This document shows positions 6,799-18,342 of a stretch of DNA of 18,523 nt, one piece after another (the first letter of the stretch is position 1; each line of letters starts with the position of its first letter). This stretch comes from Candidatus Sumerlaeota bacterium (GTDB lineage: Bacteria > Sumerlaeota > Sumerlaeia > JADFCT01). The notes below the pieces were generated by a model. The model ran no database searches, was not told the DNA's origin, and saw only the letters and a program-made list of their open reading frames with translations. The stretch lies in the NCBI GenBank assembly GCA_026398575.1, contig JAPLSP010000010.1, forward strand, positions 1 through 18,523, written 5' to 3'. The position numbers and the translations under genes are program-made.

Positions 6799-8208
6799 AT
6801 GGTCTTTACCACTCACATCTTCGTCTTTTACTTCCTGCCGCTGTTTCTGGTCGTCTATTACGGGCTGCCCTCCCGTTGGCGCAACCTCTGGATCACGGTC
6901 GCCAGTTACGTTTTCTATGGGTGGTGGGAGCCCTGGTTTGTTTGCCTGATGATGTTCACCACCGTGATGGATTTCATCTGGGGCAAAGTGATCACGCGGC
7001 CCGGCGCGACCCGGGTTCAGCAAAAGGCTGCCGTGGCCGCGTGTGTGGTGACGAACCTGAGTTTTCTAGGCTTCTTCAAGTACTACATGTTCGCCGCCGG
7101 GACGCTGAACCAGCTCTTCGAACTGGTGGGCGCCGAACGATTCCATGTCATGATGGTGGTGCTGCCCATCGGCATCTCCTTCTACACCTTTCACTCGCTG
7201 ACCTACATCATTGACCTGTATCGCAGCCACGCCACGCCCGCCAAGTCGTTCACGGATTTCTCGGCGTTTGTGGCGCTTTTCCCCGACCTCGTGGCCGGTC
7301 CGATCATCCGCTACAAAACCCTGGCTGCCCAGCTGACCGCGCGCGATCACACCCTCGAGCGGTTCGCTTCCGGTGTGACCATCTTCGTGCTCGGATTCGC
7401 CAAGAAAATCCTTCTGGCCAATCCCGCCGGGAATGCGGCGGATGCGGTCTTCAACGCGGCGGCGCCCGGCATGTTCGACGCCTGGTTCGGCGTGCTGTGC
7501 TATGCGTTTCAGATTTACTTCGATTTCTGCGGCTACTCGGACATGGCGGTCGGGTTGGGGCGGATGCTGGGTTTCGAGTATCTGAAGAACTTCGACGCGC
7601 CCTATCGCGCCGAGAGCATCACCGAGGTGTGGCGCCGCTGGCATATCTCGCTCTCCAGCGTGCTGCGCGATTACCTCTACCTTCCGTTGGGCGGAAACCG
7701 CCTCGGGGAGCGCCGAACCTACATCAATCTGGGCATCGTCATGTTGCTGGGAGGATTGTGGCATGGCGCCAAATGGAACTTCGTTGTGTGGGGCGCGTAT
7801 CATGGCGCGCTGCTCGCCTACGAGCGCTGGCGCGGCAAAACCAGCCTCTACAGCCGATGGCCGCGGGCCTTGCGGGTGGGGCTGACGTTCGTGCTGATGC
7901 TGTTTTCATGGGTCTTGTTCCGCGCCGACAACCTCACGCTGGCCATGCGCTACTTCGGCGCCATGTTTGGCCTGGCGCCGGCAAGCCCGGAATCGGCGCT
8001 GCTCGGCGCAACGCTCTATACGCCGCTGACTCTGATCGTGATGGCGGTGAGCGCGGCGCTCGTGTTCCAGCCGCTGCAGGCGCATGAGTGGACAGTGAAC
8101 AAGCCACTCTCCTGGGGTCGTGTTACCTGTTTGCTTCCGCTTTTTGTTGTATCGCTCATGGTCATGTTTTCGCAGGCATTCAATCCATTTCTCTATTTCC
8201 AATTCTGA
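6799..8208 (+). CDS. algI-like: MBOAT family O-acyltransferase, AlgI-like
   Basis: This 469-residue, strongly hydrophobic polytopic membrane protein opens with FTTHIFVFYFLPLFLVVYY and SYVFYGWWEPWF, typical of the AlgI/DltB/PatA branch of MBOAT proteins. It carries the family blocks WRRWHISLS (His282) and GGLWHGAKWNFVVWGAYHG (His322, His335). The invariant MBOAT histidine falls at 322, the same number I recall for AlgI. These proteins pass acyl groups, usually acetyl, across the cytoplasmic membrane to an extracytoplasmic acceptor or partner. The gene starts 3 bases after the lipoprotein stop and ends 5 bases before the AlgJ-like start. The natural reading is acetyl export feeding the SGNH enzyme that modifies a secreted polysaccharide. 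The actual polymer is unknown; no alginate polymerase genes are in the window. Confidence 0.95.
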   Translation: MVFTTHIFVFYFLPLFLVVYYGLPSRWRNLWITVASYVFYGWWEPWFVCLMMFTTVMDFIWGKVITRPGATRVQQKAAVAACVVTNLSFLGFFKYYMFAAGTLNQLFELVGAERFHVMMVVLPIGISFYTFHSLTYIIDLYRSHATPAKSFTDFSAFVALFPDLVAGPIIRYKTLAAQLTARDHTLERFASGVTIFVLGFAKKILLANPAGNAADAVFNAAAPGMFDAWFGVLCYAFQIYFDFCGYSDMAVGLGRMLGFEYLKNFDAPYRAESITEVWRRWHISLSSVLRDYLYLPLGGNRLGERRTYINLGIVMLLGGLWHGAKWNFVVWGAYHGALLAYERWRGKTSLYSRWPRALRVGLTFVLMLFSWVLFRADNLTLAMRYFGAMFGLAPASPESALLGATLYTPLTLIVMAVSAALVFQPLQAHEWTVNKPLSWGRVTCLLPLFVVSLMVMFSQAFNPFLYFQF

Positions 8209-8213
8209 TCGCC

Positions 8214-9374
8214 ATGACAAAAACCAGACATCCAGAAATATTTCTCGTGATCGGCTTCCTGGGAATCATCTGCGCGCCTGGCATCATCCAAACTGTCGCT
8301 GAGCTTCGGCGCAGCGAATCGCCGCAGGCGCTGAACGTGTTTCAGCAAAAAACCACGGCCAAAAACCTCCGCGCCTATGAGCATGAGATGGAAGACGCCA
8401 GTATGGTTGCCCGGCAGCTGCGGCCTCTCGTTCAGTTTGCGCAATTCACATTCCTGAAGGATGCGGGCGACAAAGCGCTTATTGGCCGCGATGGCTGGCT
8501 CTTCTATAAACCGGGTTTCCGCTATCTGACGGAGCGGCCGCCAAAACCTTCCGCCAATAGCGACGCGCTGGCCGCCATTACCCATTTCCGCGACCAGCTC
8601 GCGCAGCGCGGCATACGCCTGTTGATGGTTCCGGCGCCCAACAAGGAGAGCATTTATCCTGACAAGATATCGCAACGCGTTGCGAATACAGACGTCATCG
8701 TCTGTCCTCAAACCCGAAAACTGATCGAAGACCTTGGCGCCGCCGGAGTCGAAGTAGTGGATTTGTTTGAAGCTTATCGCGCCGCCAAGCAAATGCAAAA
8801 AGAGGCGGATTCGGCGCCGCTTTACCTGACACAGGACAGTCACTGGTCCCCGGCGGGCGTCGAGCTGGCTGCCCGGACCGTTGCGCAGCATATACTAAAA
8901 TCCGGTTGGGTCCAGGCAGGAGCAGTGGCGTATGAAAGCAAGACTGCGTCTGTATCCCGGACAGGTGACATTGTGCGCATGCTGCAAGTCCCGCAAATCG
9001 AGCGGGGCTACGCGCCCGAATCCATCGCCTGCCACCAAGTCTTGCGGCAGGACACCGGGCAGCCTTACCGGGACGATCCCAACTCGGAGATTCTCGTTCT
9101 GGGCGACAGTTTCCTGCGGATATACGAGCAGGATGAGCCAGGCAAGGCGGGTTTCATCGCCCACCTGGCCCGGGAACTCCGGCAGCCGCTGACCTCGGTG
9201 GTCAACGATGGCGGCGCCTCCACGCTTGTCCGCCAGCAACTGAGCCAGCGGCCGGCGCTGCTGCGGAACAAGAAGGTGGTAATCTGGGAATTCGTCGAAC
9301 GCGATATCCGCTTCGGCACGGAAGGGTGGCAGATGGTAGCGCTATGGGGATTTGAACCCCAGTTTCCGCCGTGA
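8214..9374 (+). CDS. algJ-like: AlgJ/AlgX-like SGNH-fold O-acetyltransferase
   Basis: This 386-residue protein has an N-terminal membrane anchor or uncleaved signal (residues 8-27). The ATG at 8214 lies 5 bases after the algI-like stop. An upstream in-frame extension from 8088 would overlap the algI-like gene and is rejected. Family marks in order are GRDGWLFY (91-98), APNKESIYP (141-149), TQDSHWSPAG (206-215, giving Asp208 and His210) and VLGDSF (295-300, giving Ser299). The D-x-H plus GDSF-Ser arrangement is the catalytic triad layout of AlgJ and AlgX, which transfer or hydrolyse acetyl on alginate in the periplasm. The last residues (about ALWGFEPQFPP) are encoded by DNA that is also a tRNA gene on the other strand. 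The native end of the fold is probably at VVIWEFVERDIRFG, so the tail may be incidental. Confidence 0.92.
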   Translation: MTKTRHPEIFLVIGFLGIICAPGIIQTVAELRRSESPQALNVFQQKTTAKNLRAYEHEMEDASMVARQLRPLVQFAQFTFLKDAGDKALIGRDGWLFYKPGFRYLTERPPKPSANSDALAAITHFRDQLAQRGIRLLMVPAPNKESIYPDKISQRVANTDVIVCPQTRKLIEDLGAAGVEVVDLFEAYRAAKQMQKEADSAPLYLTQDSHWSPAGVELAARTVAQHILKSGWVQAGAVAYESKTASVSRTGDIVRMLQVPQIERGYAPESIACHQVLRQDTGQPYRDDPNSEILVLGDSFLRIYEQDEPGKAGFIAHLARELRQPLTSVVNDGGASTLVRQQLSQRPALLRNKKVVIWEFVERDIRFGTEGWQMVALWGFEPQFPP

Positions 9375-9411
9375 GAGGGCGGCGTCCTGGGCCAGGCTAG
9401 ACGATAGCGCC
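9334..9411 (-). tRNA. tRNA-Glu (anticodon CTC), CCA encoded
   Basis: Read on the minus strand, the sequence folds as a complete cloverleaf. The acceptor GGCGCTA pairs with TAGCGCT (one G-U at the end), and the D arm GTCT...GGAC matches bacterial tRNA-Glu. The anticodon stem CCGCC/GGCGG encloses loop CTCTCAC, so the anticodon is CTC, reading GAG. The T arm is TGGGG-TTCGAAT-CCCCA, with discriminator A and encoded CCA. It overlaps the 3' end of the algJ-like gene by 41 bases on the opposite strand. The 207-bp gap upstream of the tRNA (9412-9618) holds no gene; TTGACG at 9472-9477 on the minus strand is a weak -35 candidate. Confidence 0.97.
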
Positions 9412-9618: not shown

Positions 9619-11826
9619 ATGACAAAAAGAATAAAAACAGATGAAGGAAACCGGCGCAAGGCGCTGGGCGCGTATTATACGCCTCCGGCAGTGGCGCGAT
9701 GGATGGCGCGCGAGGCGTTGATTGCTTATCTGGCGCCGCAAATGCAAGGCGTCGCAAATCAGAACCTGCAATCGTTGGAACAGGCTCTGCGAAGGCTGCT
9801 TGCGCAGGGCGTAATTAATGAGAAGAAAGCGAAGGCTTCAAATGAAAGCCAGGCAAGCCGTGCAGGCGGAGCAGGCTGCGAATGCAAAGCGAGCCGTGCG
9901 GGCGAGACGATTTCATTCTCGGATGTCCTGCAAATAAAGAGTCTGATTCTTGGTCTTCGCGCGCTCGATCCTGCGGCGGGCGATGGCGCGCTCCTGCTGG
10001 CGCTGTTGGAAGAGATGGCAGGTCTTTTGGCGAGGCTGGATGAATTGGTCGCCGGCAGTTCTGGAATCAGGGGTCAGGGGTCAGGGGCTAGGGGTCAGAG
10101 GTTTGGAATCGGGGATCAGAAAGTGGCCGGCGCTTGCACTCAAGGCAAGGAAGGAAAAAGGGAGTCGGCCTCGCGCCTGAACGAATATGTTGAACACATT
10201 GCAGCTCATTGCTTGTATGGGGTGGATATTGAAGAGGGGGCGGTTGAGTCTTGTCGTGGGCGATTGAGAGAAAGGCTGACGCAAACGGGGATTGACGCAG
10301 GCGCCTGTTTGATCGCGATTACAAACCATATCGCGGCAGGCGACGCCTTGCTTGGCAAGTGGCCATTGGTAGCAGTTCCGAGTTCTGAGTTCCGAGTTTC
10401 GAATTCAAAAGGCAGGGGCGAGGAATCAGGGGTCGGAGGTCAGGGGTCAGAGGTCGGGGGTCAGGAAAGACAAGAAGCATCAGCCAAGGCGACACAATTG
10501 AGCTTATTCGACTGCGCTTCGCCGACTGAAATCGTCAATCGTCAATCGTCAATCGTCAATCGTTCTGTCTCCTGTCTCCTGCCTCCTGTCTCCTCCTCCC
10601 GGTCTCCAGCCTCCTATGATATCATTTTGATGAATCCGCCTTATGTGAGTTTCGGATTGCGCGAATCCAAAGCGGCGGCCAAGGCGTGGCGCGAGGCGAT
10701 CCTGCGGCGCTATCCGCATTCAGCGGAATACAAGATCAGCCTGTATGCCGTATTCATGGATCGCGCGCTGGAATTCCTCAGGCCGGGCGGCGCATTCTGT
10801 TTTTTGACGCCCGATAGTTTTCTTTTGGGGCGCTATTTCAGCAAGCTGCGGCGATGGATGCTTGATTCCTGCGATCTGCAGACCGCGTTGATGTTCGAGC
10901 AGGATTTCTGGAAATCCGGCGTTGTCGGGAGACCGGTGATTTGCGCAGGGGTCAGGGATCAGAGGTCAGGGATCGGGGGCAGGGGTCAGGGGTCAGGGGT
11001 CGGGGGCGCGTGTTGGTCCGTGCCTGTCCGTGTTGGTCCGTGTCCGTCTGTGCCTGTCCGTGTTGGTCCGTGTCGGTCCGTGCCAGTCCGTGTTGGTCCG
11101 TGTTCGTCCGTGTCCGTCCATGAGCGCTTTTTCAAAGCGGAGCTTTGCCGCGACATTGCAGCGCTGGAGCGCGGAGAGATTCAATCATTCTCCTATGATT
11201 CCGCTTATTTCCAAGAAACCGACCACAACCGTTTCCGTCTTTTTTTCCGCAAAGAAGACAAGGAGTTCTGCGATCGCATGGAACATGGCGCTGAAAGGCT
11301 GGGCGATGTGATGCGCTTCGCTTCCGGTTTAATCGGAAAGCGAGGACAAGAGGATATCGTTTCAGAGCGGCGCGAAGGACCATCGTGGCGCAAAGGGATC
11401 GCTTCAGGAGCGGACGTATTGCCCTGGCGCGCGGAGTGGCGAGGGCTTTATCTCAACTTCGACTGCGCGGCGCTGAAATCCGGCTTCAAAGACGCCCGCT
11501 ATGACGCGCCCAAACTGTTGCTGCGGCAGACGGGAGACCGCCTTATTGCTGCGTACGATCCGGACGGCTTGCTGTGTCTGAATAACGTTCACGTGGGCAT
11601 GGCGCGCGAAGGCGCTAGCGTCCGCGCGGGTGATGTGTGTGATCCGCGCCTCATCGCGGCCAATCTCAACAGCGATCTGATGCATCGCTATTACCAGCTG
11701 ATTTCGCTCGAACAATCGCGCGCGATGGCGCAGACGGATATTGATGTGATCGAAAGCCTCCCCTTCAAACGCCCCATAAGACAGGATGCATTATTGTCAG
11801 GATATATTAGAGACAGGATGGATTAG
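9619..11826 (+). CDS. N6-adenine DNA methyltransferase, Eco57I/TaqI class, with in-frame repeat insertions
   Basis: The 735-residue product starts at ATG 9619 (MTKRIKTDEGNRRKALGAYYTPP). Motif X GAYYTP is at residues 17-22, SAM-binding motif I ALDPAAGDGALL at 115-126, YGVDIEEGAVE at 200-210, GDALLGKWPL at 241-250 and catalytic NPPY at 339-342. The C-terminal part (LNFDCAALKSGF, APKLLLRQTGDRLIAAYD, DIDVIESLPF) resembles a TaqI-type target recognition domain. No nuclease motif is visible, so it is probably a solitary methyltransferase rather than a type IIG enzyme. About 190 residues, at roughly 72-96, 147-175, 253-330 and 444-500, are low-complexity peptide encoded by tandem DNA repeats. They fall between conserved motifs. 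The last 15 residues and the stop codon come from the 16-bp repeat array downstream. The frame stays open through all tracts. An in-frame upstream extension to 9352 would overlap the tRNA and is unlikely. Confidence 0.88.
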   Translation: MTKRIKTDEGNRRKALGAYYTPPAVARWMAREALIAYLAPQMQGVANQNLQSLEQALRRLLAQGVINEKKAKASNESQASRAGGAGCECKASRAGETISFSDVLQIKSLILGLRALDPAAGDGALLLALLEEMAGLLARLDELVAGSSGIRGQGSGARGQRFGIGDQKVAGACTQGKEGKRESASRLNEYVEHIAAHCLYGVDIEEGAVESCRGRLRERLTQTGIDAGACLIAITNHIAAGDALLGKWPLVAVPSSEFRVSNSKGRGEESGVGGQGSEVGGQERQEASAKATQLSLFDCASPTEIVNRQSSIVNRSVSCLLPPVSSSRSPASYDIILMNPPYVSFGLRESKAAAKAWREAILRRYPHSAEYKISLYAVFMDRALEFLRPGGAFCFLTPDSFLLGRYFSKLRRWMLDSCDLQTALMFEQDFWKSGVVGRPVICAGVRDQRSGIGGRGQGSGVGGACWSVPVRVGPCPSVPVRVGPCRSVPVRVGPCSSVSVHERFFKAELCRDIAALERGEIQSFSYDSAYFQETDHNRFRLFFRKEDKEFCDRMEHGAERLGDVMRFASGLIGKRGQEDIVSERREGPSWRKGIASGADVLPWRAEWRGLYLNFDCAALKSGFKDARYDAPKLLLRQTGDRLIAAYDPDGLLCLNNVHVGMAREGASVRAGDVCDPRLIAANLNSDLMHRYYQLISLEQSRAMAQTDIDVIESLPFKRPIRQDALLSGYIRDRMD
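10064..10119. repeat. 7-bp tandem repeat (GGGTCAG type), 8 units, inside the methyltransferase gene
   Basis: Eight consecutive 7-bp units run without slippage: GAATCAG, GGGTCAG twice, GGGCTAG, GGGTCAG, AGGTTTG, GAATCGG and GGATCAG. Four GGGG runs separated by 3 bases at 10070-10094 form a canonical G-quadruplex motif on the coding strand. The translation is a Gly/Gln/Arg-rich stretch just after motif I. Confidence 0.9.
10374..10401. repeat. 7-bp tandem repeat (AGTTCCG type), 4 units, inside the methyltransferase gene
   Basis: The four units are AGTTCCG, AGTTCTG, AGTTCCG and AGTTTCG. The same heptamer occurs in the opposite orientation as (CGGAACT)n at 16247-16281. It is translated as part of VPSSEFRVSN. 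Confidence 0.85.
10426..10467. repeat. 7-bp tandem repeat (TCAGGGG type), 6 units, inside the methyltransferase gene
   Basis: The units are TCAGGGG, TCGGAGG, TCAGGGG, TCAGAGG, TCGGGGG and TCAGGAA, in unbroken 7-bp phase. This is the same family as the tracts at 10064 and 10945. It is translated as a Gly-rich segment (ESGVGGQGSEVGGQE). Confidence 0.9.
10531..10564. repeat. 7-bp tandem repeat (ATCGTCA), 4 perfect units plus one degenerate
   Basis: Four perfect ATCGTCA units begin at 10531, 10538, 10545 and 10552, followed by ATCGTT. It directly abuts the CTGTCTC tract. Translation gives IVNRQSSIVNRS, a 7-residue echo of three 7-bp units. Confidence 0.9.
10565..10613. repeat. 7-bp pyrimidine-rich tandem repeat (CTGTCTC type), 7 units
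   Basis: The seven units are CTGTCTC twice, CTGCCTC, CTGTCTC, CTCCTCC, CGGTCTC and CAGCCTC. The coding strand is almost pure pyrimidine, so triplex (H-DNA) formation is conceivable. The heptamer CTGTCTC is also the core of the 16-bp unit of the arrays at 11780 and 17525. The tract ends a few codons before the catalytic NPPY block. Confidence 0.85.
10945..11006. repeat. 7-bp tandem repeat (TCAGGGG type), about 9 units, inside the methyltransferase gene
   Basis: Heptads of the TCAGGGG/TCAGGGA/TCAGAGG/TCGGGGG family run in unbroken phase. The five G-runs at 10975-11006 satisfy the G-quadruplex pattern on the coding strand. It is followed four bases later by the 10-bp array. Confidence 0.9.
11011..11120. 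repeat. 10-bp tandem repeat (TGTTGGTCCG type), 11 units, inside the methyltransferase gene
   Basis: Eleven decamers run with no length variation. TGTTGGTCCG and close variants such as TGCCTGTCCG and TGTCGGTCCG alternate. Because 10 is not a multiple of 3, three units (30 bp) encode one 10-residue period, visible as SVPVRVGPC plus one variable residue repeated three times. It lies between the catalytic half and the putative recognition domain. Confidence 0.95.
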
Positions 11827-12120
11827 AGACAGGATATATTAGAGTCAGGATGGATTATTTTGAATATTTATCCTGTCTCTAATCTATCCTGACTCTAATC
11901 CTTCCTGTCCCTAATCCATCCTGTCTCTAATATATCCTGTCCCTAATCCATCCTGTCTCTAATATATCCTGTCTCTAATCCATCCTGTCTCTAATCCATC
12001 CTGTCTCTAATCCATCCTGTCTCTAATCCATCCTGTCTCTAATCCATCCTGTCTCTAATCCATCCTGTCTCTAATCTATCCTGTCTCTAATCTATCCTGA
12101 CTCTAATCTATCCTGTCTAT
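11780..12120. repeat. 16-bp-period array (TCCTGTCTCTAATCCA type): 5 inverted units then 16 direct units
   Basis: Inverted units have their AGG at 11783, 11799, 11815, 11831 and 11847, every 16 bp. After a short AT-rich turn (about 11852-11869), direct units have their CCT at 11872 and every 16 bp to 12112. The turn makes a large hairpin: CAGGAT at 11846 pairs with ATCCTG at 11870, and the stem continues with a mismatch through TTAGAG/CTCTAA. The first units encode the last 15 residues and the TAG stop of the methyltransferase. The array fills most of the 435-bp gap before the regulator gene; no other gene is seen there. There are no spacers, so it is not a CRISPR array. A role as terminator or recombination site is possible. 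Confidence 0.95.
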
Positions 12121-14102: not shown

Positions 14103-14477
14103 ATGCTACTGGAACGGACCATGCAATTTCGCGGCTCGAAGGGAAGAGCCGATTTGAAAGCCTTATTCGACACGGGCGCGACGTATTCCTGCATTCATCC
14201 GGCGCAAGCCGAAGCGCTGGCCCAATCCCAGGCGCTGCCGGATCCGTTGGAGATGGAAATCGCGCAAGAAGGTTACAGGATGCGAATAACACATCGAATC
14301 CGGCTGGATTTCTATCTCAACGATCTTCGTCTAACGGATGAGTTCATGATCGTGCCGGCATTGTCGGAGCAGGCGATCATCGGCGCTACGACGATGCAGA
14401 AATGGAAAATCAAACTTGATTTCGAGCACGACCAGGTATTGACAGACCCACGCGTTGCCAAACTCAAACTCATGTAA
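14103..14477 (+). CDS. Retropepsin-like aspartic protease, first tandem copy
   Basis: The product is 124 residues. AGGAGGA at 14087-14093 is ideally placed for the ATG at 14103. The catalytic triad FDTGATYSCIHP is intact (Asp23-Thr24-Gly25), followed by the A-L-A helix. The downstream hydrophobic-Gly element AIIGATTMQKWKIKLDFE (91-108) matches the second conserved segment of retropepsins. A single-domain protein with one DTG would act as a homodimer, as retroviral proteases do. There is no signal peptide, so it is cytoplasmic. It is 85 percent identical by my count (18 differences in 124) to the next gene. Substrate unknown; processing of a neighbour, such as the AlbA_2 protein, is only a hypothesis. 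Confidence 0.85.
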   Translation: MLLERTMQFRGSKGRADLKALFDTGATYSCIHPAQAEALAQSQALPDPLEMEIAQEGYRMRITHRIRLDFYLNDLRLTDEFMIVPALSEQAIIGATTMQKWKIKLDFEHDQVLTDPRVAKLKLM

Positions 14478-14520
14478 AAGCAGCAGGCTGGCGCCTGGAA
14501 AGTTTGGAGGATTTATTCCC

Positions 14521-14895
14521 ATGATTATCGAGCGCACCATGCAATTTCGCGGCCCCAAAGGGCGGGCTGATCTCAAAGCCTTGTTCGACACCGGCGCGAC
14601 GTATTCCTGCATTCATCCGGACCAAGCCAAGGCGTTGGCTCTTCCTGAAGAGCTGCCGAATCCGCTGGAGGTGGAGATAGCTCGGGAAGGGATCACAATG
14701 CGAATTACACATTGCATCCCGCTGGATTTCTACCTCAACGATCTACGTTTGACGGATGAATTCATGATTGTGCCAGCGTTGTCAGAGCAGGCGGTCATCG
14801 GCGCTACGACGATGCAGAAATGGAAAATCAAACTTGATTTCGAGCACGATCAGGTGTTGACGGACCCACGCGCTGCTAAATTGAAATTAATGTAG
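14521..14895 (+). CDS. Retropepsin-like aspartic protease, second tandem copy
   Basis: The product is 124 residues from ATG 14521, with GGAGGA at 14506-14511 at the same spacing as in the first copy. DTGATYSCIHP and AVIGATTMQKWKIKLDFE are intact. Differences from the first copy cluster in residues 34-67, the region expected to include the flap and substrate-contacting loops, while the C-terminal 55 residues are nearly invariant. Divergent specificity of two paralogues, or heterodimer formation, would fit this pattern. A further in-frame extension to 14455 overlaps the previous gene and is not needed. Confidence 0.85.
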   Translation: MIIERTMQFRGPKGRADLKALFDTGATYSCIHPDQAKALALPEELPNPLEVEIAREGITMRITHCIPLDFYLNDLRLTDEFMIVPALSEQAVIGATTMQKWKIKLDFEHDQVLTDPRAAKLKLM

Positions 14896-14950: not shown

Positions 14951-14971
14951 CCGGTTTCGAAAATCAAATGA
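14951..14971 (+). pseudogene. Remnant of the 3' end of an AF_0612-type retropepsin gene, overlapping the AlbA_2 gene start
   Basis: Bases 14951-14971 read Pro-Val-Ser-Lys-Ile-Lys-stop, the exact C-terminal six residues of the DTD retropepsin gene (14067-14087). Over 23 aligned bases (with two flanking bases) I count four differences, all in third-codon positions or the stop. The frame is closed by a TAG at 14948, so only the tail survives. Its TGA overlaps the ATG of the AlbA_2 gene as ATGA, as expected if such a gene once preceded it in an operon. Confidence 0.6.
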
Positions 14972-16233
14972 GAATTGATCTTAAAGAACTCGCCGAACGC
15001 GAAAGCGAACAGGTGGAATGGAAGGAAAACGTCGCTGACACTGAGGACGTGGTCCGCGCGGTTGTGGCGTTCGCCAACGACTATTCCAATTTGGGCGGGG
15101 GCTACGTCGTGTGCGGCGCCGCGGAGACGCGCGACGAACATGGGTTTCAGAAAATGGCGTTAACCGGCATGACGGCGGCGCGCTGCAGGGAAGTGGAAGG
15201 CGCCGTCTTGAGCGATTGCCGCGAAAAGGTTGAGCCGCCCATTGTTCCTATCGTGGATGAGCAAAGCGCCGCCACGCCGGACCGCCGCATCCTCGTCTTC
15301 ATCGTGCCGGCTTCCGGACATGCGCATTGTTTCCGGGGGCGAGGCAGGGACGCGTCGAAATATTTCATCCGGATTGGCCGGGAAACGCGCGAAGCCCGCA
15401 ATAGTCTGTTGCGCGAATTGCTTGTCAGGAAGAAAGCGCTGGAACCCTGGGACCGCCGGGTCTGCCGGGAGGCGGGCATTGCAGATATTGACTTGGTGGT
15501 GTTCCGTGACATGTTGCAGGAAATGGGACTTTGGGATTCCAAGAAGCCGCTGGATGATTATTTCTCCAGCGAATCAAAGCTCTCTGAATTCGTTCCTCCG
15601 TTGATCGGACGCGAGCCGCTGACCGGACAAACCTACCCGCGTTATTTCACGCTGCTGCTCTTTGGCAAGGAGCCGACGCGCTATATTCCGGGCGCCTACG
15701 CGATCTATTCCAAGTATCACAGCGTGGATCGCGGACAGCCGGCGGGCGAGCAGAAATGGATCAAGGGAACCATCCAGGCGCAGGCACGGATGCTCATGCA
15801 GCTGCTCAGCGCCGAAGCTCTCACGCTTTTTGACAAGAGTGATCCGCGCCCGAATCAGGCCGCTTATCCAGAGCGGGCGTTGCAGGAAGCCGTCGTTAAC
15901 GCGCTCGCGCACCGGGACTACGAATCGGATCATCCTGCGCGCGTTACGGTCTTTATGGACCGAATTGAGATTCTTTCGCCCGGCTCGCTCCCGCGCGAGA
16001 TCAAGCCGGAGGACTTCAAAACCGGAAAGTCTTTTCCGGTGTGGCGCAATCAATCGCTTGCATATTTCTTAAATAAGATGCGTCTGGCTCAAGCCGAAGG
16101 ACAGGGCATTCCCACGATATTAAGGCTGATGGATTATGAGGGATGTCCGCCGCCCATCTTTGATCTTCGCCCGGGGGCCGTCTTGTGCACATTGCCCGCG
16201 AATCCGCGGAAACTAAAAAATGGCATGTCATAA
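14968..16233 (+). CDS. Schlafen AlbA_2 domain protein with C-terminal GHKL-type ATPase domain (COG2865 type)
   Basis: The product is 421 residues. Residues 9-140 are an AlbA_2/Schlafen-like domain: ESEQVEWKEN at 12-21, VVRAVVAFANDYSNLGGGYVVCG at 28-50 and the KYFIRIGRET strand at 131-140. A middle helical region is followed by YPERALQEAVVNALAHRDYE (N-box, Glu307 and Asn311), MDRIEILSPGSLP (G-box, 330-342) and AEGQGIPTI (376-384), the HATPase_c_4 arrangement. These proteins are usually annotated as putative DNA-binding or transcriptional regulators, and some AlbA_2 proteins belong to phage defence or toxin systems. It is the last gene of the retropepsin cassette. Its start overlaps the retropepsin scar. 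Confidence 0.92.
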   Translation: MRIDLKELAERESEQVEWKENVADTEDVVRAVVAFANDYSNLGGGYVVCGAAETRDEHGFQKMALTGMTAARCREVEGAVLSDCREKVEPPIVPIVDEQSAATPDRRILVFIVPASGHAHCFRGRGRDASKYFIRIGRETREARNSLLRELLVRKKALEPWDRRVCREAGIADIDLVVFRDMLQEMGLWDSKKPLDDYFSSESKLSEFVPPLIGREPLTGQTYPRYFTLLLFGKEPTRYIPGAYAIYSKYHSVDRGQPAGEQKWIKGTIQAQARMLMQLLSAEALTLFDKSDPRPNQAAYPERALQEAVVNALAHRDYESDHPARVTVFMDRIEILSPGSLPREIKPEDFKTGKSFPVWRNQSLAYFLNKMRLAQAEGQGIPTILRLMDYEGCPPPIFDLRPGAVLCTLPANPRKLKNGMS

Positions 16234-16246
16234 TTTTTTCTAAACC

Positions 16247-16281
16247 CGGAACTCGGAACCCAGAACTCGGAACTCGGAACT
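16247..16281. repeat. 7-bp tandem repeat (CGGAACT), 5 units, directly before the GT9 gene
   Basis: The units are CGGAACT, CGGAACC, CAGAACT and CGGAACT twice, in unbroken phase, ending 8 bases before the ATG at 16290. It is the reverse complement of the AGTTCCG heptads at 10374-10401. It fills most of the 56-bp gap after the AlbA_2 gene and occupies the usual place of a Shine-Dalgarno sequence. Confidence 0.9.
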
Positions 16282-16289
16282 CCTAAAGC

Positions 16290-17524: not shown

Positions 17525-17640
17525 GACAGGATATATTTATCCTGCCCCTAATTTATCCTGCCCTTAATTTATCCTGTCTCTAATTCATCCTGCCTCTAAT
17601 CCATCCTGCCTCTAATTCATCCTGCCTCTAATTCATCCTG
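17525..17640. repeat. Second 16-bp-period array (TCCTGCCTCTAATTCA type): one inverted unit, then 7 direct units
   Basis: The inverted unit (GACAGGAT from 17525) forms a perfect 7-bp stem, CAGGATA at 17527 with TATCCTG at 17538, and a 4-base loop. Direct units have their CCT at 17541 and every 16 bp to 17637. The unit is a variant of the one at 11780-12120, with the same period, orientation and inverted head. It sits between convergent genes and may end transcription from both sides. Confidence 0.93.
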
Positions 17641-17661: not shown

Positions 17662-18342
17662 CTATTTTTCGAATACAATCGGCGCGAAGTGGTCGGGGAC
17701 GTGGAAGTTGAGCGCGTCGCCAATGGGCGCCCAGCTGGCCCAATGCGGATGAGAGGTTTCATCGCCGCATTTGTAGAAATTCGCCCGCCATTCCTTCCCC
17801 GCGATTTCCCCCAGCGCTCCGACGTGAACCTCGAAGAGCGAAAAAGGGATGAAGTATTCGAGCCGCCATTCTGTCGGCGTTTCAATCTCCGGCGATACGA
17901 ATGACGGCATCGAATGATAAATCGCCACCTCGCTCGCCAGGGTATCCTCGATCGGCTCGCTTCCGGCGAGTTTGCCCGCCTCATCGCGCCGCCAATCCCA
18001 CACATAGCTGGCGAGCAGCGCTCCGCCGCAATTGATTTCGAAGTTGAAGTAGCCCTTACCCGGCTTGGGCCGCACGAAAAACTCACAGCAGCTGTCCAAC
18101 CAGACCGGGTCCATCCGCTCGGTCCAGACGCAACGCATGTAGCGGTCCATCACCTTGAACGCCACATAGATTCCTTTTTCGTTGTAGAGCGCCTTGGCCT
18201 GCGTGAGCGGATGATGATCGCTGCTCATGCGATGAAAATGATTGATGTCGAGCGCCGGCGCCTGATCCCACGGCGCCTCGTCCCATTGGCCTTCCAGCGC
18301 GGGCGGTTGCTTGGCGCGGCGAATAAGATAACTCAGGCTCAT
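17662..18342 (-). CDS. Carbohydrate-binding family 9-like protein (CBM9-related)
   Basis: The product is 226 residues. An AAAGGAGGATGATGG leader lies just upstream of the ATG at 18342. The opening PPALEGQWDEAPWDQAP is the typical start of CBM9-like modules (the ligand-of-low-dimension style xxLDGxxDExxW). YNEKGIYVAFKVMD, VWLDSCCEFFVRP, YFNFEINCGG, EWRLEYFIPFSLF and WRANFYKCGDETSHPHWASWAP follow, matching the family-9-like DOMON-related beta-sandwich. There is no signal peptide, so it may be cytoplasmic, unlike classical CBM9 modules attached to xylanases. Such stand-alone proteins are common in PVC genomes near glycoside hydrolases. It probably follows the gene whose tail lies at 18361. Ligand unknown. 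Confidence 0.9.
   Translation of the reverse strand: MSLSYLIRRAKQPPALEGQWDEAPWDQAPALDINHFHRMSSDHHPLTQAKALYNEKGIYVAFKVMDRYMRCVWTERMDPVWLDSCCEFFVRPKPGKGYFNFEINCGGALLASYVWDWRRDEAGKLAGSEPIEDTLASEVAIYHSMPSFVSPEIETPTEWRLEYFIPFSLFEVHVGALGEIAGKEWRANFYKCGDETSHPHWASWAPIGDALNFHVPDHFAPIVFEK

Follow-up and report, generated by a model that had tools for sequence, protein, structure and literature searches.

The stretch of DNA considered here (the window, 18,523 nucleotides of contig JAPLSP010000010.1 from a Candidatus Sumerlaeota bacterium) carries a DNA methyltransferase gene whose reading frame runs from the ATG at 9619 to the TAG at 11824-11826 and is crossed by seven tandem-repeat tracts. The product is a predicted N6-adenine DNA methyltransferase of the Eco57I/TaqI class: both Pfam matches lie well above their cut-offs (PF07669, 69.3 bits against 25.3; PF12950, 50.3 bits against 26.5), and the NPPY motif (N339 P340 P341 Y342), as expected of the class, is invariant in a 47-row alignment. 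The structure model has a mean predicted local distance difference test score (pLDDT) of 77.1 and a predicted template-modelling score (pTM) of 0.80. Its Foldseek matches in the PDB are CamA, M.BseCI and M.TaqI, with template-modelling (TM) scores on the query of 0.3-0.5, so it is the core and not the whole chain that matches these enzymes. A protein search returned 69 hits including the query itself, the nearest being P0002, with 60% identity across 56% of the query. The positions of the gene and of the repeat arrays are collected in Table 1.

Table 1. The methyltransferase gene, its repeat tracts and the other arrays of the window.
Feature	Position	Strand	Remarks
Predicted N6-adenine DNA methyltransferase gene	9619..11826	+	735 aa; PF07669 Eco57I 197-426, PF12950 TaqI_C 595-715
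Tract 1, TCAGGGG x5.1	10067..10102	+	residues ~149-162, loop 1
Tract 2, AGTTCCG x4.7	10374..10406	+	residues 252-263, loop 2
Tract 3, TCAGGGG x5.7	10426..10465	+	residues 270-283, loop 2
Tract 4, AATCGTC x4.9, 100% matches	10530..10563	+	residues 304-315, loop 2
Tract 5, CTGTCTC units	10565..10615 (14-bp row; 7-bp row 10565-10594)	+	residues 316-333, loop 2
Tract 6, TCAGGGG x8.9	10946..11007	+	residues ~443-463, loop 3
Tract 7, 10-bp unit x11.1	11009..11119	+	residues 464-501, loop 3; 30-bp (three-unit) higher-order period
16-bp array overlapping the gene's 3' end	11779..11857	+	holds the stop codon; stands in for the relatives' C-terminal tail
Intergenic 16-bp array x15.6, 249 bp, opposite orientation	11870..12118	+	inverted relative to 11779-11857
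Intergenic AACTCGG x5.7	16243..16282	+	reverse complement of the tract 2 family; TRF
Intergenic 16-bp array x6.6	17535..17640	+	unit resembles that of 11870-12118; TRF

Tandem Repeats Finder (TRF) recovers all seven of the tracts of 7- or 10-bp units that the initial annotation had described, at positions within 3 bp of those given there. The frame is open through every one of them, and the tracts lie between the conserved motifs and never inside one, as had also been claimed: the DPAAGDG motif, the NPPY motif and the TaqI_C match are all spared. An eighth array, made of a 16-bp unit and starting at 11779, was absent from the earlier list. The seven tracts, 33-111 bp in length, belong to five unit families, i.e. 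TCAGGGG (three tracts), AGTTCCG, AATCGTC, CTGTCTC and the 10-bp unit. Upstream of the terminal array, tracts of TRF score at least 40 cover 367 out of 2160 bp; in 200 codon-order shuffles of the gene the mean coverage was 1.15 bp and the maximum 35 bp. Six out of the seven tracts are degenerate (75-91% matches on the short period) and one is perfect. Tract 5 begins one base past tract 4 and tract 7 one base past tract 6, so arrays of different units gather at the same sites. The G runs of tract 1 at 10070-10094 match a G-quadruplex pattern. Adding or removing one unit in any of the seven tracts shortens the protein to 184-561 residues.

In the 47-row alignment the tracts lengthen three loops of the methyltransferase. 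Loop 1 has 68 residues in the query as opposed to 25-37 in the near relatives P0002-P0011, loop 2 has 89 as opposed to 14 in P0003-P0011 (9 out of 9) and 18 in P0002, and loop 3 has 87 as opposed to 38 in P0003-P0011 (again 9 out of 9) and 68 in P0002, where it is a separate expansion, unlike that of the query. In the wider set of homologues the lengths range broadly (20-71 residues for loop 1 in 41 rows, 11-161 for loop 2 in 43 rows and 34-68 for loop 3 in 46 rows), so the loops are variable across the family at large. The tracts themselves are absent from the homologues: the best repeat-unit score among the 68 homologous hits is 5, as opposed to 7, 8, 9, 11 and 28 for the five families of the query (we give the best homologue score because a cut-off of 9 would miss the query's own AGTTCCG and CTGTCTC, at 8 and 7, respectively). 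Homologues that share the same low-complexity segments, which the initial annotation had named as the case that would speak against inserted repeats, did not turn up among these 68 hits. Inspection by eye of the three frames of 10103-10150, 10407-10425 and 10466-10529, between the tracts, revealed no homologous text of the kind a frame-shifted remnant would leave.

The structure model gives a pLDDT below 50 for segments 250-280, 316-329 and 452-498, and ten-residue blocks lying mostly within tracts score 31-64, except block 441-450 at the start of tract 6, which scores 88; confidence is also low in the non-tract segments 1-9, 83-92 and 346-350. As far as the model can tell, the tract-encoded peptides are repetitive and probably disordered. 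It could be argued that such disordered loops are adaptive and alter the interactions of the enzyme, as has been proposed for the amino-acid repeats of Borgs, and the low confidence of most tract residues would agree with this, as would the disordered regions that in-gene Borg repeats generate according to the consulted part of PMC9879509. We consider this very improbable, as unrelated units occupy the same loops and the near relatives manage without tracts. Ahead of the seven tracts, two near-copies of a 16-bp word were noticed by eye at 9835-9912, in the first loop of the methyltransferase, which measures 72 residues between its anchors as opposed to 13-50 in P0002-P0011 (nine of these proteins cover the loop); the near-copies may be what is left of an older tract.

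The translated units also occur in proteins that have nothing to do with DNA methylation. A composite query of translated units gave 7997 scored candidates and 227 proteins at E<=1e-3, of which the best 120 are listed; 76 of these have a precomputed Pfam match, and some of the matches, such as DUF1720 in P0073, may reflect the repeat alone. Nine out of the 120 are named Candidatus Sumerlaeota, namely two radical SAM proteins, an O-antigen ligase, TrmD, methylthioribose-1-phosphate isomerase, TrpB, a glycosyltransferase, an E2 subunit and a hypothetical protein, and the names Phycisphaerae, Desulfobacterales and more appear among the other matches listed. Judged by its repeat families, the window would tentatively be placed in or near Candidatus Sumerlaeota. 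Eighteen further hits are named Burkholderia pseudomallei (259-305 residues, without a Pfam domain) and four are eukaryotic; both groups stay within the 120 and in the unit-family counts. When the loop 3 tract was the only query, the single further protein to emerge was P0070 (E 1.9e-4), which is unrelated to the methyltransferase: it has no Pfam match and the likeness is centred on the tract. In P0136, P0072, P0085 and P0180, AGTTCCG-type tracts are translated in both orientations inside a single protein, so the corresponding genes should hold inverted arrays, i.e. potential hairpins in coding sequence.

Ten housekeeping proteins, hand-picked from the 120 listed hits, were scanned with Pfam and ten with NCBIfam; several of the genes with such tracts are usually essential. 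A single domain match encloses the tracts, or has stretches on both sides of them, in TsaD (in two places), TrmD, UvrC, MnmE and the head domain of the CCA-transferase, and likewise in TrpB as judged by the stretches of TIGR00263. In MutL, TilS and the methyltransferase P0176 the tracts are found in a linker or past the domain match, and in the isomerase ahead of the domain. The NCBIfam equivalog cut-off is passed by 5 out of 10 proteins (TsaD, TrmD, TrpB, UvrC and the isomerase) and the equivalog_domain cut-off by MetRS. GyrA, MnmE, MutL and E2 fall below their equivalog cut-offs; the last three seem incomplete at their start and GyrA ends in repeats.

That the same units recur in so many other records also bears on the suspicion that the tracts are an assembly or sequencing artefact of a metagenome contig. 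The methyltransferase protein is listed on one contig alone, and the copy number of the 249-bp intergenic array is uncertain, as the array exceeds the length of short reads. The in-gene tracts measure 33-111 bp and the frame is exactly preserved, and we regard an artefact as almost negligibly probable.

The units differ in the stop codons they would bring into a gene. For TCAGGGG and AATCGTC one orientation is stop-free and the other is not; for AGTTCCG, CTGTCTC and the decamer both orientations are stop-free, and for the 16-mer neither is. All seven in-gene tracts lie in a stop-free orientation of their unit, and the 16-mer is found within the window only at the 3' end of the gene and in two intergenic arrays. 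An open frame by itself accounts for part of this distribution, which as a pattern in the sequence is consistent with a stop-codon sieve acting on in-gene units. The periodicity of the in-gene decamer array is also of note, as copies are 0.88 identical at lags 30 and 60 as opposed to 0.77-0.80 at the other unit lags, a contrast that was reached in 4 out of 5000 within-column shuffles. The intergenic 16-mer array has no such three-unit period (3306 out of 5000 shuffles reach the contrast). The decamer array is thereby suggestive of a three-unit rule for repeats inside genes.

Arrays of the same units are found on viral DNA. IMG/VR was searched with exact 27-28-base patterns, a decamer pattern and a 32-base 16-mer pattern, and contains 21 stretches with the TCAGGGG pattern, 19 with AATCGTC, 2 with AGTTCCG, 6 with CTGTCTC, 2 with the decamer and none with the 32-base 16-mer pattern. 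Two phage contigs that are 98.9% identical (L012 and L015) differ by 14 bp, i.e. two units, in each of two TCAGGGG arrays, and a second pair (L008 and L019) differs by 7 bp, i.e. one unit, in one such array. The arrays of the first pair (L012:4169-4218, L012:5016-5060, L015:3271-3335 and L015:4132-4190) sit directly before start codons, and those of the second (L008:5198-5263 and L019:456-514) run, as judged by eye, from the stop codon of a minus-strand gene to the start codon of the next gene, much like the array that ends the methyltransferase gene. The intergenic position of the differing arrays was judged by eye from the preceding stop and the following start codon; stop-free frames cross some of them on the unit strand. 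Among 30 array-related viral frames, which include some with other units, 6 match Pfam (the portals of L009 and L016, the terminase of L024, a primase/AAA protein in L021, DUF6011 in L022 and DUF5131 in L035) and 24 do not; PHROGs matches were found for 5 out of 10 viral frames. In every stop-free frame of at least 180 residues with an exact TCAGGGG or AATCGTC array the unit strand is the coding strand, an observation we discarded as evidence because the stop in the other orientation forces it. As a background control, limited to one phylum and one pattern, the 27-base TCAGGGG pattern was found in 0 out of 299 genomes of the phylum to which G001 belongs (G001 is the genome that L001 comes from and is titled Clostridia).

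These differences in unit number bring us to the first of two explanations offered by the initial annotation, namely phase variation, in which the gain or loss of units would be a selected on/off switch of the methyltransferase and hence of the methylome. A contingency methyltransferase is usually recognized by a pure repeat tract near the 5' end or in the promoter. Here the first tract starts at codon 149 and one out of seven is pure, so that part of the picture is missing, even though a change of one unit does shift the frame, as 7- and 10-bp units must, and would truncate the protein. The AATCGTC tract at 10530-10563 is perfect, TCAGGGG arrays vary by one or two units among related contigs, and phase-variable methyltransferases are well known (PMC4889913, in the part consulted). 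On the other hand, six tracts are degenerate, seven independent frame-shifting tracts would make reverting to the on state awkward, and the same unit families are present in housekeeping proteins, which they interrupt. We gave up phase variation as the main explanation once the translated units had appeared in TsaD, TrmD, TrpB, UvrC and others; the tracts are unlikely to serve this purpose, and as an account of the locus we hold phase variation to be decidedly improbable. Accidental loss of methyltransferase function by slippage is a different matter and is possible, given that intergenic arrays in phages differ by one or two units.

At the 3' end of the gene the situation is different, as the 16-bp array there brings its own stop. 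Past P715 the query has 20 residues as opposed to 43-95 in P0002-P0011 (2-206 across 46 homologues, some of them partial), so it lacks the complete C-terminal tail of its near relatives; three frames read by eye from 12119 onwards, downstream of the array, revealed no leftover of this tail. The arrays at 11779-11857 and 11870-12118 together form a long inverted repeat, a potential hairpin just past the stop codon, and the 112 bases across their junction (11779-11890) fold at -43.2 kcal/mol; the inverted arrays could serve as a terminator.

The second explanation of the initial annotation, tolerated intrusions of a repeat family, fits the homologues without tracts and the same translated units in many unrelated proteins. 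The added claim that the repeats are normally intergenic stood in part: intergenic copies were seen for AGTTCCG (16243-16282) and the 16-bp unit in the window and for TCAGGGG in phage contigs. We consider it likely that short tandem-repeat families have spread through the genome and are tolerated in the loops of genes as passengers, and not as a switch. Several families with 7-bp, 10-bp and 16-bp units would emerge or insert at many sites of the genome, and the arrays would then lengthen or shorten by whole units. Intergenic copies would endure in any orientation and length, while a copy inside a gene would be kept mainly when its orientation is stop-free and its net length preserves the frame. 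Such selective filtering would leave in-gene copies, presumably translated, chiefly at protein ends, in linkers and in flexible loops. The methyltransferase would have taken up seven copies in three loops, and a stop-bearing array would have replaced its C-terminal tail; a one-unit slip in one of its tracts would then be an accidental knockout.

Several observations weigh against the view that the repeats are tolerated passengers. The composite query picks out repeats by design, the Burkholderia pseudomallei and eukaryotic hits are possibly spurious frames, and at least two unit families occur in 5 out of the 120 listed hits, a number so low that the five families in the methyltransferase gene are unusual. 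The housekeeping cases are known as protein only, their 7-bp period being deduced from the heptapeptide. The domain match of the TilS-like P0146 stops at the array, the CCA-transferase P0073 ends in a second array and GyrA P0181 ends in an array, so to judge by sequence some array copies may disrupt their host genes. The query is one of two gaps in an alignment column that has Tyr in 44 out of 47 rows (and one Phe), and together with the lost tail this means that the methyltransferase itself may be impaired. The L013 and L025 arrays show no length difference. The three-unit period concerns a single array and was tested after the 30-bp row had been noticed, and the lag test gives no clear 21-bp (three-unit) preference in the 7-bp tracts.

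Some of these points would also agree with gene decay, in which arrays pile up because the methyltransferase has become dispensable and its frame is still open by recent chance. This gene is the only one of nine tested in the window with non-triplet tracts, its tail is lost, its GC content at third codon positions (GC3) is 0.60 as opposed to 0.66-0.82 in the other eight genes, and P0146, P0073 and P0181 stop at their arrays. Against decay stand 735 codons that are open over seven frame-shifting tracts, conserved blocks that share one frame on the flanks of each loop, the retained NPPY motif and TaqI_C match, and similar tracts in proteins still above equivalog cut-offs. We therefore think decay unlikely, with some small chance of being right. 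A structured RNA or an intron as the cause of the tracts was dismissed, since Rfam at gathering thresholds yields nothing but a tRNA (9337-9411).

It is interesting to compare the tracts with known repeat families. The short tandemly repeated repetitive (STRR) heptamers of cyanobacteria are likewise heptanucleotide tandem arrays in a genome. The TAACTGA heptamers of Beggiatoaceae, Cyanobacteria and Bacteroidetes, as portrayed in the consulted sections of MacGregor (2015, PMC4679880), are 7-bp direct repeats and mostly intergenic; their forward copies have stops in all frames and can only end genes, whereas the reverse copies are readable, and hypothetical proteins, cyanobacterial and other, contain translated repeats too. 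Where the protein has an assigned function, the in-gene copies are, in the same sections, mostly at the ends, with one exception, an open reading frame (ORF) similar to RNA polymerase beta prime. The 7-bp tandem unit and the argument from stop orientation are thus shared. The units of the window are other sequences; TAACTGA is a single unit, whereas here a single enzyme has several families in its interior loops, and housekeeping enzymes elsewhere contain translated units. The GGGNATC-type G-quadruplex heptamers of Xanthomonas and Nostoc form genome-wide arrays of variable unit number according to excerpts of Rehm et al. (2015, PMC4692102), which also mention the heptanucleotides of Calothrix and cite the suppression of simple repeats within genes. 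TCAGGGG is similarly a G-rich 7-bp unit that fits a G-quadruplex pattern, but the GGGNATC heptamers are described there as under-represented on the coding strand of genes, whereas three TCAGGGG tracts lie on the coding strand of a single gene here.

Two further precedents concern repeats inside genes. The tandem repeats of Borgs occur within and between genes, encode amino-acid repeats and can be of several kinds per ORF, but their in-ORF units are, in the portion of PMC9879509 at hand, all divisible by three, unlike the 7- and 10-bp units of the methyltransferase. The Rickettsia palindromic elements are repeat families found in frame inside unrelated genes (review PMC10969869, consulted in part); they are palindromes of about 150 bp, unlike tandem arrays of short units. 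Compared with these precedents, the novelty is that units of non-triplet length, from several families in a single gene, sit in interior loops and also recur in housekeeping proteins. A methyltransferase gene with a tract is known from Campylobacter jejuni; the tract of this Type IIG enzyme is reportedly a simple repeat. Switching is reported for it in the consulted part of PMC4889913, whereas the repeats described here are mostly degenerate and not specific to methyltransferases. The open-access literature yielded no paper combining Sumerlaeota with tandem repeats, and in the accessible main text of the Sumerlaeota paper PMC8092238 the words tandem, repeats, repetitive and heptamer are all absent.

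The remaining features of the window can be described briefly. Genes for AlgX-like, MBOAT-like and PocR-AraC proteins are among its contents. Of eight other genes tested, a set that leaves out 17662-18342 and the small frames of 14103-14895, seven have no tracts, and the TolB-like one contains 37 bp made of a 12-bp unit. The frame 17662-18342 gives a TRF row of a 15-bp unit (x2, score 46). Arrays are present in three out of eight intergenic stretches tested, and of the five families in the gene AGTTCCG alone recurs elsewhere in the window (the intergenic array of Table 1). The tRNA is a tRNA-Glu (CTC) at 9334-9411 on the minus strand and overlaps the final codons of an AlgX-like frame (8088-9374), meaning that the AlgX-like gene may end differently or that the overlap may be real. 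The stretch 14118-14894 is a tandem duplication (period 418 bp, 83% matches) that spans two adjacent small frames, which resemble retropepsin-type aspartic proteases. The protein encoded at 14968-16233, which we take to be AlbA/Schlafen-like, has PADLOC matches to pAgo-related models.

Our most far-reaching proposal, to which we would give slightly less than an even chance, is that in Candidatus Sumerlaeota and some other bacteria 7- and 10-bp arrays invade core genes on a scale that is new to the literature searched and become heptapeptide and decapeptide loops of housekeeping enzymes. The in-gene arrays would change in length only by three units (21 or 30 bp), and the genetic code itself would filter a self-spreading repeat. 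One would expect non-triplet repeats to be purged from gene interiors, and here five families of them are found in the interior of an enzyme. The locus offers a testable system for asking by what route short arrays spread when no element is evident, what load of repetitive insertions an enzyme can bear, and whether in-gene arrays, unlike intergenic ones, follow a three-unit rule. It also calls for caution, in that a methyltransferase gene with repeats is not by itself phase-variable.

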